Shown here piece by piece: positions 31,314 through 38,923 of a stretch of 39,029 nucleotides of DNA. The notes below the pieces were generated by a model that was given only the letters and a program-made list of their open reading frames with translations, had not been told where the DNA came from and did no database searches. Both the position numbers and the translations under genes were made by a program. How positions within the stretch are numbered: the stretch's first letter is position 1; every line of letters begins with the position of its first letter. The DNA is taken from positions 1-39,029 of the forward strand of contig JAGWOX010000007.1 in the NCBI GenBank assembly GCA_028877145.1, in the 5' to 3' direction. Source of the DNA: Acidobacteriota bacterium (lineage in GTDB: Bacteria; Acidobacteriota; Terriglobia; Acidiferrales; UBA7541).

Positions 31314-31790
31314 CTACTGGGACTGGCTCTTGGCGTTCACTACCTGAAACCTGTACCAGGACGTTCCCGTCGGATATTGCACGTCGCTGAATTGAGCGGT
31401 CTGCTCCCCGTTCGGCCCGATGGTGACGGGAATCACGCCCGTATTCTGCGACAGAATTTGGTTGTCCGCGCCAGCGTAAGTGGTCTGGTACGAGATGGCG
31501 CTATAAGTGTAAACCGGTGACAGGTTATGGATGTCCACCACCCACGTTGCGACGGTTCCGCTGCTGTCTTTCTGCATCTGGGCGCTCACGACTTGCAGAT
31601 CGTGAGCTGGATCGGCTTTCTGGTTGGCCACGGCCGCTGGATGGGCTTCTGCAGCTGCCGTCTTGCTTGTTGTACTACCTTTCGATCTCAACAGAAGCAC
31701 GACGGCGACGGCAAGAACGATAATAAGCGCCGCCGCAATCCAAATTCCCTTCTTGCTCTGTGGTTCCAATTCCAGCGGCTGTTCAAACAT
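31314..31790 (-). CDS. Membrane-anchored protein of unknown function
   Basis: The 158-residue protein has a short cytoplasmic start (MFEQPLELEPQSKK), one transmembrane helix (GIWIAAALIIVLAVAVVLLL) and an Ala/Thr-rich linker. The extracytoplasmic beta domain (about 62-155) includes TWVVDIHNLSPVYTYSAISY and GPNGEQTAQFSDVQYPTGTS. That domain resembles the FxLYD-type Ig-like fold, a guess only. GGAGG lies 7 nt before the ATG. It stands 206 bp beyond the nucleotidyltransferase gene of the lasso cluster, on the same strand; membership of that operon is unlikely given the gap. Confidence 0.7.
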   Translation of the reverse strand: MFEQPLELEPQSKKGIWIAAALIIVLAVAVVLLLRSKGSTTSKTAAAEAHPAAVANQKADPAHDLQVVSAQMQKDSSGTVATWVVDIHNLSPVYTYSAISYQTTYAGADNQILSQNTGVIPVTIGPNGEQTAQFSDVQYPTGTSWYRFQVVNAKSQSQ

Positions 31791-31996: not shown

Positions 31997-33133
31997 TTAA
32001 CCTTTCCTTCGGCCCAGCAAGCGCACGGGTCGCAAGAGAAAGTAGGCAAATCCGAGCGGGGCGGGCAGGCGAAGCTTGTCCCAATCGTCAGCGGCGGGTG
32101 TGGTCGCGAGACGCGCTACGTACCGGACGCCGGGCCAGAAACCCTCCACCATGCGCATCCGATAGCGTAGTTGTTCGCGACGGCCAAGCGCCTCGGAGGC
32201 GAATAGGCGGGTGGCCAGCCATTGCGCCAACTCTCGCGCTCCGGCATCCGCCGCGACCGCGCGCAGAACGTTCTCCGGCGTCGTCGCTCCCAGAGTTTCG
32301 TGTGCGAGAAACAGGGCAACGTTTGTCATTCGCCGGCAGCTTGTCTGGTCGGCCCGGTTGAGCGCCTTACCCCAATCGAATCCCCGCGCCGTAACGAGCC
32401 GGGCGATATCGCAGATCCAGAGCAACTGCGCCCAGAAATCCTTGGCACCGTGCACGGCCAGCAGCGTAAGCGTGTCCTCGCGCGAAAAAGTCAGCACACG
32501 CCGGCCCGCCAGCGTCACCTCTTCCCGCTCGGCAAGGAGCGGCTCGAGATCGGGCGGTTCTGGGAAATGGCGCAGAGTCAATTCAGTATGAACTTCGATC
32601 TGAACGCCTTCACGTGAAAGGAAGACGTATTCACCCGGAACCGGCGCATTGGGAGCCGCCAGAGCCGGGCTCACCGGCCGGTAGCCCAGTGCTTCGAGCA
32701 AACTCCATGCGGCGCGCAGGTCGCGATGCGGAAGGATGAAATCCAGATCGACGAACTGGCGCAGCCCCAGGCTTTCATATGCCATCTCGGCCAGGACGGC
32801 TCCCTTGTATGGAATCAACGGAATCTTTTCCGCTTCGGCGCACCCGGTGATTTCCACTAGTTTCGCCGCGAGCTGCAGGTTCCGCGCCGCCGTCGCCATC
32901 GCCTCGGCACGGAACGCCGCCAGCACCTCGGCAGGCACCACCGCCCCGCCCAATTCCTGAAGCACCGGATAGCACAAGGCCGCCACGCGTTGCGCACGCG
33001 CATTCTCGAACACGAGTTGCCAGTCGAGCGTCCCCTGAAGCAGTGTGCCGATCTGCGGGCGTCCATCCGGCTTCAATGGCACGCCTACGCAAGCCAACAG
33101 CAGTCGATGCTCGGGCCGCAGACCCGCACTCAT
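31997..33133 (-). CDS. Nucleotidyltransferase-family protein of a lasso cluster (NTP_transf_5-like)
   Basis: From the ATG at 33133 the protein has 378 residues. It matches the uncharacterised nucleotidyltransferase family found in RiPP and exopolysaccharide clusters: IPLIPYKGAVLAEMAYESLG followed by LRQFVDLDFILPHRDLRAAW, where DLD would be the metal-binding acidic pair, then EVHTELTLRHFPEPPD and VHGAKDFWAQLLWICDIARL. These correspond to the KG-x-x-L, D-x-D and H-x-x-K-D-x-W signatures. It should transfer a nucleotidyl or related group to a peptide or sugar. The open frame extends to an ATG at 33280 overlapping the kinase by 44 bp; the shorter start is preferred because the family begins near AGLRPEHRLLLAC. 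In the lasso literature I recall such genes beside kinases in pseudomycoidin-type clusters. Confidence 0.85.
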   Translation of the reverse strand: MSAGLRPEHRLLLACVGVPLKPDGRPQIGTLLQGTLDWQLVFENARAQRVAALCYPVLQELGGAVVPAEVLAAFRAEAMATAARNLQLAAKLVEITGCAEAEKIPLIPYKGAVLAEMAYESLGLRQFVDLDFILPHRDLRAAWSLLEALGYRPVSPALAAPNAPVPGEYVFLSREGVQIEVHTELTLRHFPEPPDLEPLLAEREEVTLAGRRVLTFSREDTLTLLAVHGAKDFWAQLLWICDIARLVTARGFDWGKALNRADQTSCRRMTNVALFLAHETLGATTPENVLRAVAADAGARELAQWLATRLFASEALGRREQLRYRMRMVEGFWPGVRYVARLATTPAADDWDKLRLPAPLGFAYFLLRPVRLLGRRKG

Positions 33134-33236
33134 GGAGAGCCAAGGCTCCTGTGCAACGTTGTCCACCCACACATTATGTTCTCGGAAGGAGGAGACTGCG
33201 AGGAATGCGGATGGCGGAATCCACGCCCGCGGGCTT

Positions 33237-34244
33237 TCAGTGGGAACGGCCGGAAACTGCGGCGTTGGCCGCGTGAACATCGTTGATCACCAACTCGCAC
33301 AGTTGACCCAGCTTGTTGGGATCGCTTGATGGCACCAATCGGCGGACCAAGGCAGTTCGAGCGACCTCTGCTTGCAGTTGAAACTCGCGCCCACGGTGCT
33401 CGGAAGCGAGCGCTGAACTGACGAATCCATTGACGAGGAGTTCGAGCAGGCCGCCCGTCTGATCCAATGGCTCGATCGAAGGAGCGCCGGGGTCATCGCT
33501 TCTTGGGGCGAGCAGATAAACAGCGCCGAGCGGCGCCGGCTCATCCTGGTATTTGCCCGGAGACCGGCCTAAGCGAACAAGCCGCTTGTTCTCCCAAGGG
33601 ACGAATTCGGGTAACTGTTCGGCCGCATCGGCGCCATATACGAATTCGGCCGAATCGGGCCACAAGCAGACGCGCGGCGGTCCGGGAAGCGCCAAGAGTC
33701 CGGTGCCGGGATCAGATCGGAGCACTGACACGTCGTCCGCCAGAACCGGGCAGCCCCGCTCGGCAAACGCGGCCGCCGTGCTCGATTTGCCCCTCCCGGG
33801 ATTGCCTGCGAACAGTACCGCCCGACCCTCGATCACCACCGAACTGGCATGGAAGCATATGCAGCCGCGGAGGTGGAGAACGAAAGCCAGGACCTGACTG
33901 AGGAAGAATGCGGTGACCAACTCTTCGGTGATACCGTCGACCCAGCGCGCCCAAATCCGGGCCCCATCCTCGTCGATCAGAAATGTCAGCCCCTCGCAAT
34001 ACTGGAAGCAATAGAGCTGGCTTGAGGAGTCGTGCCAAACCCGAAGGATCGGCACGCCCTGAGCATCGAGGATGCGGCTGGAATAAGTTGGCTTCTGCTG
34101 CTGTAGGTTGGCGGCGTCGAATCCCGTGGGCAATTGGCCGAGCCGGCAAACCACATCGGGCTCACGGGGGGCGTCGGACGGATCCAAGCCGGTCAGGGTC
34201 CGGTCCGACGCCATATCCATCCCGTAAAGCCGGTAATGCACCAA
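33237..34244 (-). CDS. HPr-kinase-like protein of a lasso cluster
   Basis: The 335-residue protein has an N-terminal domain of unknown fold (about 1-110), then FVLHLRGCICFHASSVVIEG and a Walker A loop FAGNPGRGKSSTAAAFAERG (147-154, Lys153). The HPr-kinase signature DDVSVL comes next, at about 170-175. The rest matches HprK-like proteins that lack HPr as substrate and occur in RiPP gene clusters. In lasso clusters of the paeninodin type, a related kinase phosphorylates the precursor at a Ser. Here it follows the precursor gene by 30 bp. The start is a TTG at 34244 with GGAGA upstream; the next codon is a GTG that could also serve. Confidence 0.85.
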   Translation of the reverse strand: MVHYRLYGMDMASDRTLTGLDPSDAPREPDVVCRLGQLPTGFDAANLQQQKPTYSSRILDAQGVPILRVWHDSSSQLYCFQYCEGLTFLIDEDGARIWARWVDGITEELVTAFFLSQVLAFVLHLRGCICFHASSVVIEGRAVLFAGNPGRGKSSTAAAFAERGCPVLADDVSVLRSDPGTGLLALPGPPRVCLWPDSAEFVYGADAAEQLPEFVPWENKRLVRLGRSPGKYQDEPAPLGAVYLLAPRSDDPGAPSIEPLDQTGGLLELLVNGFVSSALASEHRGREFQLQAEVARTALVRRLVPSSDPNKLGQLCELVINDVHAANAAVSGRSH

Positions 34245-34274: not shown

Positions 34275-34430
34275 TTATGGGCAGGTGCTCATGGTGACGT
34301 GATGTGGGGCGCTCGAACAGTTTGGCGTGAAGTCGATGCCGCCTCCGCTCGCCGTGAGCGTCAACTCACGCAACGTACCGTACCGGCGGAGTTCTGGAGC
34401 GCGATAAGGCGCCTTAATGGATGTGGGCAC
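34275..34430 (-). CDS. Lasso peptide precursor (A gene), newly identified here
   Basis: A 51-residue frame starts at a GTG (34430) and ends TAA (34275-34277). The leader contains YRAPELRRYGTLRELT (residues 9-24), an exact match to YxxPxLxxxGxxxxxT, the motif read by lasso B1 proteins. The conserved Thr at position -2 is Thr24, so the core should start at Thr26: TASGGGID, then FTPNCSSAPHHVT and MSTCP. Asp33 is the only acidic residue after the leader and falls at core position 8, the right distance for a macrolactam. Cys38 and Cys50 are core positions 13 and 25. It overlaps the end of the synthetase gene by 17 nt and has a perfect AAGGAGG six bases upstream. The kinase and nucleotidyltransferase genes follow. 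Core start at Thr1 is unusual, so the exact cut is uncertain; the precursor role is well supported by motif and location. Confidence 0.88.
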   Translation of the reverse strand: MPTSIKAPYRAPELRRYGTLRELTLTASGGGIDFTPNCSSAPHHVTMSTCP

Positions 34431-36297
34431 GAAATTCCTCCTTCTGGGGCAGTTTATACGCGTATTGGGATTCCCATTGCAACCAGTAATTCAAACTGAT
34501 AGGGCGAAGATGCACCGCCACCTGCCACGGAGCCGGGTTTTGGGCAGATTCCATCGCTCGTTTCACATCTACGTACCGGTTGAGTCCTTCGACCGGTCCA
34601 AACTTTTCCAACCAGGGTTTCCGGCTGGTGCGGTAAAACGCCATCAACAGATCGGTAACAATCGGCCGCTTCCGACGCAACCTCACCTCGTCCGGCAGCA
34701 TTCCACGCATCGAACGCCGCAGCAATTCCTTGTCAGAGCACCACGGAAGAGCCGGCAGGCTGAGGACATAGCGCACCACTCGTAGATCGAAAAACGGGTG
34801 TCGGGCTTCGATGCAGGCACCAAAATTATCTGCATCAAATTCCTCGAACAGACCTGCCCAGATGGGTGCTTCCATCAATTGATGAGCTTCGGGGCGGACC
34901 GCTCCCGCCGGCGGCGTCTTCCAGATCGGCGTCCGGCCGTATTGTTCGTACCGCTCACGCAGGTGCAAGCGGCACTCGAAATCGGGATTCAGCCAGCCGG
35001 GATACGCATGGATAGGAATCCGCTCATGGAAAATTTCGCGTAGGTGGCCCACAAGATAGAGGCGCCACATGCGCCCGTCAGAGAGCAGATGCCCGGTCAT
35101 TTCTTTAGCCAGGAGAAGCCATCTCCCTTCCCGAACCCGCTGGCGACAATGGCGCGAGCGCAAACTCGAGAAAACTCCGTCACTGCCCTGTCCGGTCAAA
35201 ACCACTCGCGCGTCCCCGGGCTGACCCAACACTTCAGCCAGTGTCCAATCAAACAACGGAGTTTTCCAGGGCTCCGCCCGGCGAAATTCGGGACGATTCC
35301 AGAAGCCGAGCAACTGCTTTTCGTCGAGCGGAAACTCCTCCCACGGGATTCCGATTTTTTTAGCGGCCAGGCTGGCGAGGCGCCCTTCTTCGTAAGGAAT
35401 GAGGCGTCGATAGCTCTGCGTGTGGGCGGAAAGGGCGCAGTGGCCGCCTTGCTTGGCCGCCACGCGGCCTGCCATTGCCGCAACCGAACTCGAATCCATC
35501 CCCCCGCTCATCATCAACGTGACGCGATCCGTGCGCAGGCGGTCGGCGACGGCACGTTCGAAAAGCTCCAGGAAGCGTTCAACGTAGTCGCGCGAACGGC
35601 GAAAGACCGTCGGCGGGCCGGCCGGCAAAGTCCAGTAACAGCGAGTTCGCACTTCTCCATCGGAAACGATCAGCACGTGTGCCGGCGCCAGACGACGGAT
35701 GGCTTCCCGCGCCGTTCGTCCGGGGTCGAAACCCACACCGGCCACGAGATAATCGCCAATGGCCGGTTCGTAGATGTCGTCGGGAACGCCGGGATGCAGG
35801 CGGGGGGCGTCGATGGCGTTGCTGAAGACAAACGTCCGCCCCTCGTGCGCGTAAAAGAACGGCCGAACGCCGAAATGATCGCGTGCGCAGAAGAGTTTTC
35901 GTTCGCGCGTGTCCCATATGGCGAAGGCAAAGTCGCCCAGAAGATGGTCGACGCATGCTTCGCCCCAAGCAGCGTAGGCGTGAAGGAGCACCTCGGCGTC
36001 GGGCCGCTCGATCGAGCAATCATGTCCGCGGCCGGAGAGTTCGCGGATCAAATCCTCGCGCGCGTCCACACGCGCGTCGGCCACGATCCACGATTTACCA
36101 TCGAGGGTCATGGGTTGCCGTTCGCCGCGCGATTCCCGCGTTGTCACAAAGAGCGTGTGCACCAAGCCCACGTTCCCTTCGACCCATTCGCCCAGGCCGT
36201 CCGGTCCGCGGTAATGAAGGAACTCCCCGAGACGTCTGACGAGCGCGCGATCGACGGGCGCTCCATCCAGATTCACGATTCCGGCAAATCCGCTCAT
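34414..36297 (-). CDS. Asparagine-synthetase-like lasso macrolactam synthetase (C protein)
   Basis: From the ATG at 36297 (ATGA overlap with the B2 gene) the protein has 627 residues. An N-terminal Ntn-type glutaminase-like domain (about 1-210) starts MSGFAGIVNLDG: residue 2 is Ser, where active glutaminases have Cys, so ammonia is not expected to be made. GDFAFAIWD and ARDHFGVRPFFYA follow. The synthetase domain has the PP-loop LMMSGGMDSSSVAAMAGRV (264-270) and LTGQGSDGVFSSLRSRH. By analogy with McjC it would activate the Asp side chain of the precursor with ATP and let the N-terminal amine attack it, closing the ring. The frame extends upstream inside the B2 gene but the Met-Ser-Gly start is clear. 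Its 3' end contains the precursor start. Confidence 0.92.
   Translation of the reverse strand: MSGFAGIVNLDGAPVDRALVRRLGEFLHYRGPDGLGEWVEGNVGLVHTLFVTTRESRGERQPMTLDGKSWIVADARVDAREDLIRELSGRGHDCSIERPDAEVLLHAYAAWGEACVDHLLGDFAFAIWDTRERKLFCARDHFGVRPFFYAHEGRTFVFSNAIDAPRLHPGVPDDIYEPAIGDYLVAGVGFDPGRTAREAIRRLAPAHVLIVSDGEVRTRCYWTLPAGPPTVFRRSRDYVERFLELFERAVADRLRTDRVTLMMSGGMDSSSVAAMAGRVAAKQGGHCALSAHTQSYRRLIPYEEGRLASLAAKKIGIPWEEFPLDEKQLLGFWNRPEFRRAEPWKTPLFDWTLAEVLGQPGDARVVLTGQGSDGVFSSLRSRHCRQRVREGRWLLLAKEMTGHLLSDGRMWRLYLVGHLREIFHERIPIHAYPGWLNPDFECRLHLRERYEQYGRTPIWKTPPAGAVRPEAHQLMEAPIWAGLFEEFDADNFGACIEARHPFFDLRVVRYVLSLPALPWCSDKELLRRSMRGMLPDEVRLRRKRPIVTDLLMAFYRTSRKPWLEKFGPVEGLNRYVDVKRAMESAQNPAPWQVAVHLRPISLNYWLQWESQYAYKLPQKEEFRAHIH
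34437..34443 (-). promoter_or_regulatory. Shine-Dalgarno site of the precursor gene
   Basis: AAGGAGG, a full anti-16S match, sits inside the 3' end of the synthetase coding sequence with a 6-nt gap to the GTG at 34430. It argues that the GTG is a real, highly expressed start, raising precursor output relative to the enzymes in the same transcript. Confidence 0.8.
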
Positions 36298-36746
36298 CGC
36301 CAGCTCACCCGTGCCGGCGCGAAATCCCGGTCGAACGCGGCGTAGCGGTCGCCAATATCCTGGCCTTCGTTGAGGCTGACCCCGGCCGCTTCCACCCAGG
36401 CGTGAGCTTCGAAGCGATTCTCGCCCTTGCGCACGCCGATGCGCATTTGCGCGGGAATCCCTTGCCGCTCGAGCAAACAAGCAAGCACGACCGAGCGCGC
36501 CAGGCACGTGCCGCCAGCGTATTGCGCCGCCACGGCCACCAATCGTGACGTGCGCCGCGCGTGGCGCAACGCACCACCCGAATCCACCGGCCCGGCAGGT
36601 CGCAAGCGGGGCCCAAGCACCGCTTGCGCGCGGCGCAATCCGAACACCTTCAGCGCCACGCGCACTGCCGGCAGCAGCATGAGGGCCGTCAGGAACAAGG
36701 ATTTCTCCTCGGCCGGAAGTCGCCAAAATTTACGCCAGTTACTCAT
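36294..36746 (-). CDS. Lasso leader peptidase, transglutaminase-like (B2 protein)
   Basis: The 150-residue protein has the lasso B2 layout: an N-terminal hydrophobic helical part (LFLTALMLLPAVRVALKVFG) and the cysteine-protease core GGTCLARSVVLACLLERQGI (Cys81), RFEAHAWVEAAGVSLNEGQD (His115) and DRYAAFDRDFAPARVSW. The third catalytic residue would be an Asp in McjB; here the matching position is Glu127, with Asp130 nearby. It should cut the leader off the precursor with the help of the B1 protein. The ATG lies 8 bp inside the B1 gene. Confidence 0.92.
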   Translation of the reverse strand: MSNWRKFWRLPAEEKSLFLTALMLLPAVRVALKVFGLRRAQAVLGPRLRPAGPVDSGGALRHARRTSRLVAVAAQYAGGTCLARSVVLACLLERQGIPAQMRIGVRKGENRFEAHAWVEAAGVSLNEGQDIGDRYAAFDRDFAPARVSWR

Positions 36747-37023
36747 CGCTTGTTTCGAGTAGGCCGTTCCCCACCAGGTTCTCGATCAATTTTTCAAGGT
36801 CCTGCCGCAGGCGTTGCTCATCAACATCGTAGACCGAGAGCAATTCCTGATACGCCGCCTCGACGGTATTCGCTTTCGTCAGCGCTTCCCACATCCGCGT
36901 GCCCACGGGGTCCAGCCCGAAATAGCATTCCTTTTCCAGGTTCAGCAGAACCGATTCCTCGCCCACCTGCTGCAACAGGACGTGCGAAGGCACCACGACG
37001 CGAGCGCTGAACGAAATCGGCAA
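36739..37023 (-). CDS. PqqD-like precursor recognition element (B1 protein)
   Basis: A TTG at 37023 with GAGGG seven bases upstream gives 94 residues. The RRE/PqqD winged-helix pattern is clear: ISFSARVVVPSHVLLQQVGE, SVLLNLEKECYFGLDPVGTR, MWEALTKANTVEAAYQELL and VDEQRLRQDLEKLIENLVGN ending GLLETSDE. B1 proteins bind the leader of the precursor and deliver it to B2 and C. The open frame reaches back to a TTG at 37089, but the likely promoter lies at 37080-37088, so the longer version would begin upstream of its own transcript. This gene is the first of the cluster. Confidence 0.9.
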   Translation of the reverse strand: MPISFSARVVVPSHVLLQQVGEESVLLNLEKECYFGLDPVGTRMWEALTKANTVEAAYQELLSVYDVDEQRLRQDLEKLIENLVGNGLLETSDE

Positions 37024-37079
37024 TACCTCACCCTCGCAGGAACAAATCCAAACTGTACTCGAGTCTCGACTCGCGGGCG

Positions 37080-37088
37080 ATTGTAACA
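37080..37088 (-). promoter_or_regulatory. Probable extended -10 promoter of the lasso operon
   Basis: The minus strand reads TGTTACAAT: a TACAAT hexamer (37080-37085) preceded by the TG of an extended -10 element. It is about 55 bp before the B1 start. No good -35 match lies 17 bp further up, which fits extended -10 promoters. The start site would be near 37073. Confidence 0.4.
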
Positions 37089-37289
37089 AAGTCGGTCTTC
37101 AGAGAACAGACGGTGTGTTCGTCCCGACAGTACCGGAAGTACCAAAACGGACGCGTGATTGGTCTGTTAACTCTCCAGTAAACACTTGGCTATCCCCGCT
37201 GGCGCGCCACACCTTTCGCACCGGCGGAGGACCGGTCGCTGGATTTTTCGCCCGCTTTTCGTTATAACGGCAAAGCGCAAGGGCCTGAC

Positions 37290-38093
37290 GTGCAAGCCAT
37301 CCTCGTCGAGAAACTCACCAAGCAATTCCCTCCCGCCTATTCCGGCTGGCGCACGTTCCTGCAGGTGGTGGTGCCGGCGACAGTGCGGGCTCTCGGCGGC
37401 GTCTCCTTCCACGTGGATGAGGGCAAAGTGCTCGCGCTGGTAGGGGAGAACGGAGCGGGGAAATCCACGCTGCTGCGAATTCTCTCGACGTTGCTCTTGC
37501 CGACCGGCGGCCGCGCTGCGATTGCCGGCTTCGACGTCGAGCGGGAACCTGCGCTGGTTCGCCGCCATATCGGTTATCACAGCGGCGCCGACTTCGGTTT
37601 CTACGGCCGACTGACAGGTCGTGAAAATCTGGAATTTTTTGCATCGATGAACGGGCTATCCCGGCAGGAAACCGTCGCCCGCGTGGCCGAATTGACCGAG
37701 CATCTGGGTCTTGCGCCCGCCCTCGACCGGCAGGCCCGCGGCCTTTCTTCCGGAACCATCAATCGCCTCGGCCTCGCCCGTGCCATCCTGCACCGGCCGC
37801 CGGTTCTCCTGCTCGACGAGCCGACCCGCAGCCTCGATCCGGTTGCCTCGGCGGAATTTCGCGTTGTGCTCAAGGACTTCGTGCGCCGTTACGGCGTGAC
37901 CGTCCTATTCGCTTCCCACATCCTGAGCGAAGTGGAGGAGCTTGCCGACAGCGTCGCTCTGCTCAGCGGCGGTTCGCTCGTCGCTTTCGACACGCCCGAG
38001 GCATTGCGTGCCTCGACCGGCTGTGCGACGGCCTCCCAGGCAATCGAAATGCTGCTCGCACACGCAGCGGCCAGCACCGGGGTGCCGCAATGA
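37290..38093 (+). CDS. ABC transporter ATP-binding protein
   Basis: The 267-residue protein has Walker A VGENGAGKSTLLRI (52-60), IGYHSGADFGFYGRLTGREN in the Q-loop region, a signature LSSGTINRLGLARAIL that deviates from LSGGQ, Walker B PVLLLDEPTRSLDP (Asp176, Glu177) and the switch His in FASHILSEVEEL. This is a drug/polysaccharide-export type of ABC-2 subunit. It begins with a GTG and overlaps the permease gene by 4 bp. It is divergent from the lasso operon across a 200-bp gap, so it is a candidate exporter of the product, but general housekeeping use is equally possible. Confidence 0.92.
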   Translation: MQAILVEKLTKQFPPAYSGWRTFLQVVVPATVRALGGVSFHVDEGKVLALVGENGAGKSTLLRILSTLLLPTGGRAAIAGFDVEREPALVRRHIGYHSGADFGFYGRLTGRENLEFFASMNGLSRQETVARVAELTEHLGLAPALDRQARGLSSGTINRLGLARAILHRPPVLLLDEPTRSLDPVASAEFRVVLKDFVRRYGVTVLFASHILSEVEELADSVALLSGGSLVAFDTPEALRASTGCATASQAIEMLLAHAAASTGVPQ

Positions 38094-38923
38094 GTGCACG
38101 CGGGGCGAAATGGCGCGAGCTCCTGCGGCAAATCGGTCAGCTTTTTCGCCGGGATATGCTCACCGCGCGTACCTATCGCGTGGCATTTCTTTTCGACGCC
38201 GTCAATGCTCTGTTCGGCGCCGCCTCCTTCTATTTTCTTTCTCAATTCGTCGCAAGCGACAAGCTGAAAAGCAGCCTGGATGGCGCTAGCTACTTCGCCT
38301 TCGCATTGATTGGCCTGGCATTTTTCGACTACCTCTCGGCCGGCTTGAACGCCTTCGATACCAGCATCGACGATGCCCGCCGCAACCGCACCCTGGAGGC
38401 TTTGCTCGTCACCGAAGCCTCCCTGCCCGTCATCCTGGCCGGATCGGCAATCTATCCCTTCGTTCTTACCTCAGTCCGCACGGGCGTATACCTGGTTTGG
38501 GGAGTGATCCTGTTCCATCTGCCGCTGGGCTCGGCCGACTGGCTCGGTGCGCTTCTGATTCTCCTGTTCTCGATTCTGGCGTTCGCCGGTCTGGGCATCA
38601 TCTCGGCGAGTTACCAGATGCTCTTCAAGCGTGGGAATCCGGCGAAGTGGATTTTTCTCGGAATTTCTGGGCTGCTCGGCGGAATGATGTACCCGGTCAG
38701 CATTTTGCCGCCCGTGCTGCGGACCCTGGCGCGCCTGATACCACTTACGTATTCCCTCGAAGGCATGCGCGCGGCGCTGCTCGAGGGGGCGGGCATCGGC
38801 CGTCTGTGGCCCCAGATCACCGCTCTCGGAATTTTCGCCGTAGTTCTGCTGCCGCTTTCGTTCCTCGTGTTTGCGTGGGCGTTGCGCCGCACCAAAATCA
38901 ACGGCACCCTGACGCACTTCTAG
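38090..38923 (+). CDS. ABC-2 type transporter permease
   Basis: The 277-residue integral membrane protein has a short cytoplasmic N-terminus (GQLFRRDMLTARTYRVAFLF) and about six hydrophobic segments. The ABC-2 hallmark sits near 195-225 (FLGISGLLGGMMYPVSILPP followed by VLRTLARLIPLTYSLEGMRA), and it ends WALRRTKINGTLTHF. With the overlapping ATPase it should form an exporter in the inner membrane. The substrate is unknown. Beyond it the window holds 106 bp without a gene. Confidence 0.9.
   Translation: MSARGAKWRELLRQIGQLFRRDMLTARTYRVAFLFDAVNALFGAASFYFLSQFVASDKLKSSLDGASYFAFALIGLAFFDYLSAGLNAFDTSIDDARRNRTLEALLVTEASLPVILAGSAIYPFVLTSVRTGVYLVWGVILFHLPLGSADWLGALLILLFSILAFAGLGIISASYQMLFKRGNPAKWIFLGISGLLGGMMYPVSILPPVLRTLARLIPLTYSLEGMRAALLEGAGIGRLWPQITALGIFAVVLLPLSFLVFAWALRRTKINGTLTHF

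Follow-up and report, generated by a model that had tools for sequence, protein, structure and literature searches.

Does the short frame at positions 34275..34430 (minus strand) encode a genuine lasso peptide precursor and, if so, what would its product look like? On the sequence evidence, the frame is a real lasso precursor gene (A) in a complete cluster of an uncultured acidobacterium; lasso peptides are natural products with a knotted fold. Within the window, by which we mean the whole 39,029-nt stretch analyzed, the frame comprises 51 codons, starts at GTG, ends at a stop codon, and shares the last 17 nt of the neighboring C gene. An AAGGAGG Shine-Dalgarno sequence (34437..34443, minus strand) lies inside the 3′ end of C, where it supplies the codons for KEE of the C protein, at a spacing of 6 nt from the GTG. 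The coordinates, strand, start codon, length, and ribosome-binding site that an earlier note gave for this frame all match the sequence. Residues 1 to 25 of the product form the leader, and residues 26 to 51 form the predicted core, TASGGGIDFTPNCSSAPHHVTMSTCP. The earlier note also called the frame too short for most gene callers, a weak point, as the NCBI model NF033521 already names such peptides and 153 nt is above the minimum length of common gene callers.

The leader carries Y9, P12, L14, G18, and T24, an exact YxxPxLxxxGxxxxxT at all fixed positions within residues 9 to 24, as had been claimed. Against NCBIfam NF033521 (lasso leader), the peptide scored 22.2 bits, above the curated cutoff of 19 bits. 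The window holds the strict motif a single time, and none of 200 versions of the full 39 kb generated with a first-order Markov model and scanned in six frames contained it; thus, a chance origin of the motif is excluded, in agreement with the earlier judgment that chance was very unlikely. A different precursor elsewhere in the genome, which the earlier note had named as a result that would count against its reading, was also sought and rejected: in the 91% complete genome, no second precursor scored above the NF033521 cutoff, with the next-best matches reaching 11.6 and 10.8 bits. The genome carries one B2 gene and one above-cutoff precursor.

The surrounding genes form a minus-strand operon in the order B1-B2-C-A-kinase-nucleotidyltransferase, joined throughout by overlaps or short gaps, and A sits between the C and kinase genes as originally described. 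The lasso operon is a complete and otherwise ordinary gene set, with B1, B2, and C adjacent as in lasso clusters (PF05402, PF13471, PF00733, and NF033537). C (34414..36297, minus strand) is a 627-residue, asparagine-synthetase-like lasso macrolactam synthetase (PF00733/PF13537) with an SGGMDS motif. It scored 347 bits against NF033535, under the cutoff of 525. Assignment of C as an asparagine synthetase was rejected, because Cys2 of the glutaminase is missing from its N terminus (MSGF) and the gene is grouped with B1 and B2. In a plasmid search with C, all matches were below 60% identity. B2 (36294..36746, minus strand) is a transglutaminase-like leader peptidase (PF13471, Transglut_core3) that scored above the NF033537 cutoff and contains the motifs CLARS and HAWVE. 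B1 (36739..37089, minus strand) is a PqqD-like RiPP recognition element (PF05402) that matches TbiB1, a solved lasso recognition element (5v1u/5v1v), with an E value of 4.4e-9. Because most relatives align from approximately codon 23, the TTG at 37089 is probably upstream of the true B1 start.

On the other side of A lie an HPr-kinase-like peptide kinase, K (33237..34244, minus strand), and a nucleotidyltransferase-like protein (NTP_transf_5) of uncertain start codon (31997..33280, minus strand; PF14907, E value of 2e-57). Downstream of the latter, a 158-residue protein (31314-31790, minus strand) has an N-terminal hydrophobic stretch and no clear family match. Divergent from B1 is an ABC-2 pair (37290..38923, plus strand; PF00005 and PF01061) consisting of an ATPase (37290-38093) and a permease (38090-38923). 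Of the five nearest relatives examined, four (L115, L116, L117, and L119) have this candidate exporter next to B1.

Conservation also supports a real gene. The same operon, with a short frame in the same place, was found in four genomes of the same genus (L115 to L118) and one of the same family (L119), with protein identities of 46 to 64% over the aligned parts. The GTG start and the Shine-Dalgarno sequence inside C are kept in three of the four same-genus frames (L115, L116, and L118); L117 and L119 start with ATG. Within the genus, the precursors have similar leaders and diverged cores. Over 240 codon pairs of the leader, identity is 0.66 at the first codon position, 0.75 at the second, and 0.33 at the third, a pattern that indicates selection at the protein level. 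The search for homologous short frames beside C in related genomes, suggested by the earlier note, retrieved a leader-motif frame between C and the kinase in 28/28 order loci, counting from the locus table only those loci that hold both genes. The motif is therefore conserved in orthologous clusters, and its absence there was the other result that the note had set against its own reading. Across several phyla, a leader-motif frame lies just 3′ of C in most of 80 loci. Taken together, the NF033521 score, the conserved orthologues, and the complete B1-B2-C operon support the reading as a lasso precursor.

In lasso leaders, Y, P, and L occupy positions -17, -14, and -12, with the usual Thr at -2 (PMC10368454). 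Applying this register places the predicted core start at T26 and Asp33 at position 8, and no other start combines Thr(-2) with an acceptor Asp at ring position 7 to 9. The core thus has the Asp or Glu expected at positions 7 to 9, and all five genus members have Thr at residue 1 and Asp at residue 8. Elsewhere in the order, the acceptor lies mostly at position 9 (21/28 precursors). By the same register, residue 1 of 28 order precursors is Thr in 13, Ser in 6, Ala in 4, Lys in 2, Gln in 2, Arg in 1, and Gly in 0. Further frames at other loci were recorded. At L055:7737-7958, a precursor-like frame accompanied by C and a kinase has the core TTGKTASPHQEIGHTTYRTY, in which ring positions 7 to 9 include neither Asp nor Glu. 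Two others (L128:4052-4204 and L136:8066-8248) place the acceptor Asp at position 10, beyond the usual 7 to 9. In addition, two precursor frames lie in tandem at L139:8229-8624, and the register gives their cores Arg1 and Lys1.

Among the first residues observed in lasso peptides are Gly, Cys, Ser, and Ala, with Asn reported as new (PMC12670498), and residue 1 of leepeptin is Leu (PMC6856326). Membership of the class does not require a first residue already known from experiment. The predicted Thr1 falls outside these examples, and the literature searched yielded no report of an experimental Thr1 lasso, which, at partial coverage, is weak evidence of absence. The ring probably starts with Thr, the one mildly unusual trait of this precursor.

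The register is where the most substantial alternative arises. A real precursor might instead be cut so that the core begins at L25, giving a 9-residue ring, or at A27, giving a 7-residue ring. Asp33 would then fall at position 9 or 7, either of which is an allowed ring size, and the former is the placement seen in most other clusters of the order. Either start, however, removes T24 from -2 and shifts the Tyr, Pro, and Leu off -17, -14, and -12; moreover, within the genus residue 25 varies (Leu or Arg) and residue 27 varies (Ala, Gly, or Ser), while T26 is invariant. We therefore regard another register as unlikely, though the least unlikely of the alternatives considered. Distinctly less probable is that the frame is translated and no lasso results, either because the product is unthreaded or because this strain carries a silent or decaying cluster. 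The assembly is likely metagenomic and the nearest relatives are metagenome-assembled genomes, which leaves some room for such a reading; against it, all six operon frames are open, the catalytic motifs are retained, and within the genus the leader shows constraint at the protein level. That the frame is a functionless chance occurrence in the gap between C and the kinase has in its favor a short length and a non-ATG start. This explanation was rejected as extremely improbable, given the empty Markov windows, the orthologues with conserved Shine-Dalgarno sequence and GTG, and the presence of the frame at every order locus counted. The preferred reading is thus a functional lasso precursor with its core starting at T26.

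The tailoring genes predict, by family assignment, phosphorylation and further decoration of the lasso. K retains the His (H132), GxxGxGKS (GNPGRGKS, 147 to 154), and Asp-Asp (170 to 171) of PadeK/ThcoK/BsfK-type kinases and resembles BsfK (E value of 7.6e-13). A weak match to PF07475 (Hpr_kinase_C) is present in 17 of 18 members of its family, and K itself scores below the Pfam gathering threshold. Its AlphaFold model (pLDDT 91) matches the PEPCK/HprK superfamily, which led us to reject an unrelated P-loop protein. The best fold matches are PEPCKs, at low TM-score, with HprKs appearing from rank 33, and the fold is thus consistent but not specific. Every tabulated core has Ser or Thr among its last five residues, and four of the five genus cores have Ser3; in BsfA, Ser3 is the site phosphorylated by BsfK (PMC10368454). 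Four of the five genus cores also contain two Cys at varying positions, making a disulfide in the core possible.

Comparison with known systems places the locus in familiar company. BGC 44.1, an acidobacterial lasso cluster from a soil metagenome, likewise has an ABC permease and ATPase followed by B1, B2, C, and A (permease, 822 bp; ATPase, 810 bp; A gene, 150 bp), all with acidobacterial best hits; judged by its published table, it differs in having no kinase or nucleotidyltransferase (PMC9064862). The Bradymonas BsfA/BsfK cluster shares separate B1, B2, C, and kinase genes, the YxxPxL leader from -17 to -12, and an Asp8 ring, but BsfA has Ile(-2) and Gly1 where this precursor has Thr(-2) and Thr1 (PMC10368454). 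An HPr-kinase homologue is also found in the paeninodin and pseudomycoidin clusters, the latter with a nucleotidyltransferase as here and with hexoses added onto the phosphate; in both, a C-terminal Ser is phosphorylated, whereas the present peptide has TCP as its C-terminal residues, and its nearest hydroxyls are Ser48 and Thr49 (PMC8498205 and PMC9266682). Metanodin, also from a soil metagenome and missed by automated annotation, shares a noncanonical first ring residue and Thr(-2), but it has Asn1 and is gammaproteobacterial, in contrast to the acidobacterial Thr1, 8-residue ring, and two Cys described here (PMC12670498).

Unusual lasso loci were also noted in other genomes. Four genomes of genus g2 in the order appear to have their lasso genes divided over two contigs (L121/L161 in G024, L131/L160 in G026, L126/L162 in G030, and L130/L163 in G008), with B1-B2 lacking C, kinase, and precursor on one contig and A-C-kinase with no detected B1 or B2 on the other. 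Fragmentation alone is an unlikely cause, because G026 is 97% complete in ~60 contigs; the leader-removal pair B1-B2 would in this arrangement act in trans. In-frame stops were reported in the matched C region of G057:C80:90470-92326 and in the C genes of G089 and G090, and may reflect alignment overrun, assembly error, or decay.

For the present locus, the analysis shows that the gene is real and conserved and establishes which genes make up the operon and which families its enzymes belong to. Where the precursor is cut, how its ring closes, where it is phosphorylated, how it is exported, and what it does are inferences, and we propose the following pathway. A would be translated from GTG via the Shine-Dalgarno sequence inside C, in probable translational coupling with C. 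B1 is predicted to bind the leader through Y9, P12, and L14; B2 would cleave after L25; and C would activate Asp33 and join it to the Thr26 amino group, so that an 18-residue tail would thread a Thr1-Asp8 ring of 8 residues. K would most likely phosphorylate a core Ser or Thr, either in the tail or at Ser3 as in BsfA, the nucleotidyltransferase may add to this phosphate, and the ABC-2 pair may export the product. As a whole, this explanation (lasso precursor, Thr1-Asp8 ring, kinase and nucleotidyltransferase tailoring, and ABC-2 export) appears to us very probable. Its extension, that the genus makes phosphorylated, possibly disulfide-bearing lassos with a Thr1-Asp8 ring and that the cyclases of the order take Thr, Ser, Ala, Asn, Gln, Lys, or Arg as the first core residue but not Gly, is favored only slightly.

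The stress that the earlier note laid on novelty and on the frame being unannotated was overstated. This kind of lasso has already been described from soil Acidobacteria (PMC9064862); what is new here is the precursor sequence. Product data seem to be scarce for this acidobacterial lasso lineage, to which the finding contributes a well-supported precursor; it also provides a concrete case for asking whether lasso cyclases close rings on Thr and where acidobacterial HPr-like kinases phosphorylate.
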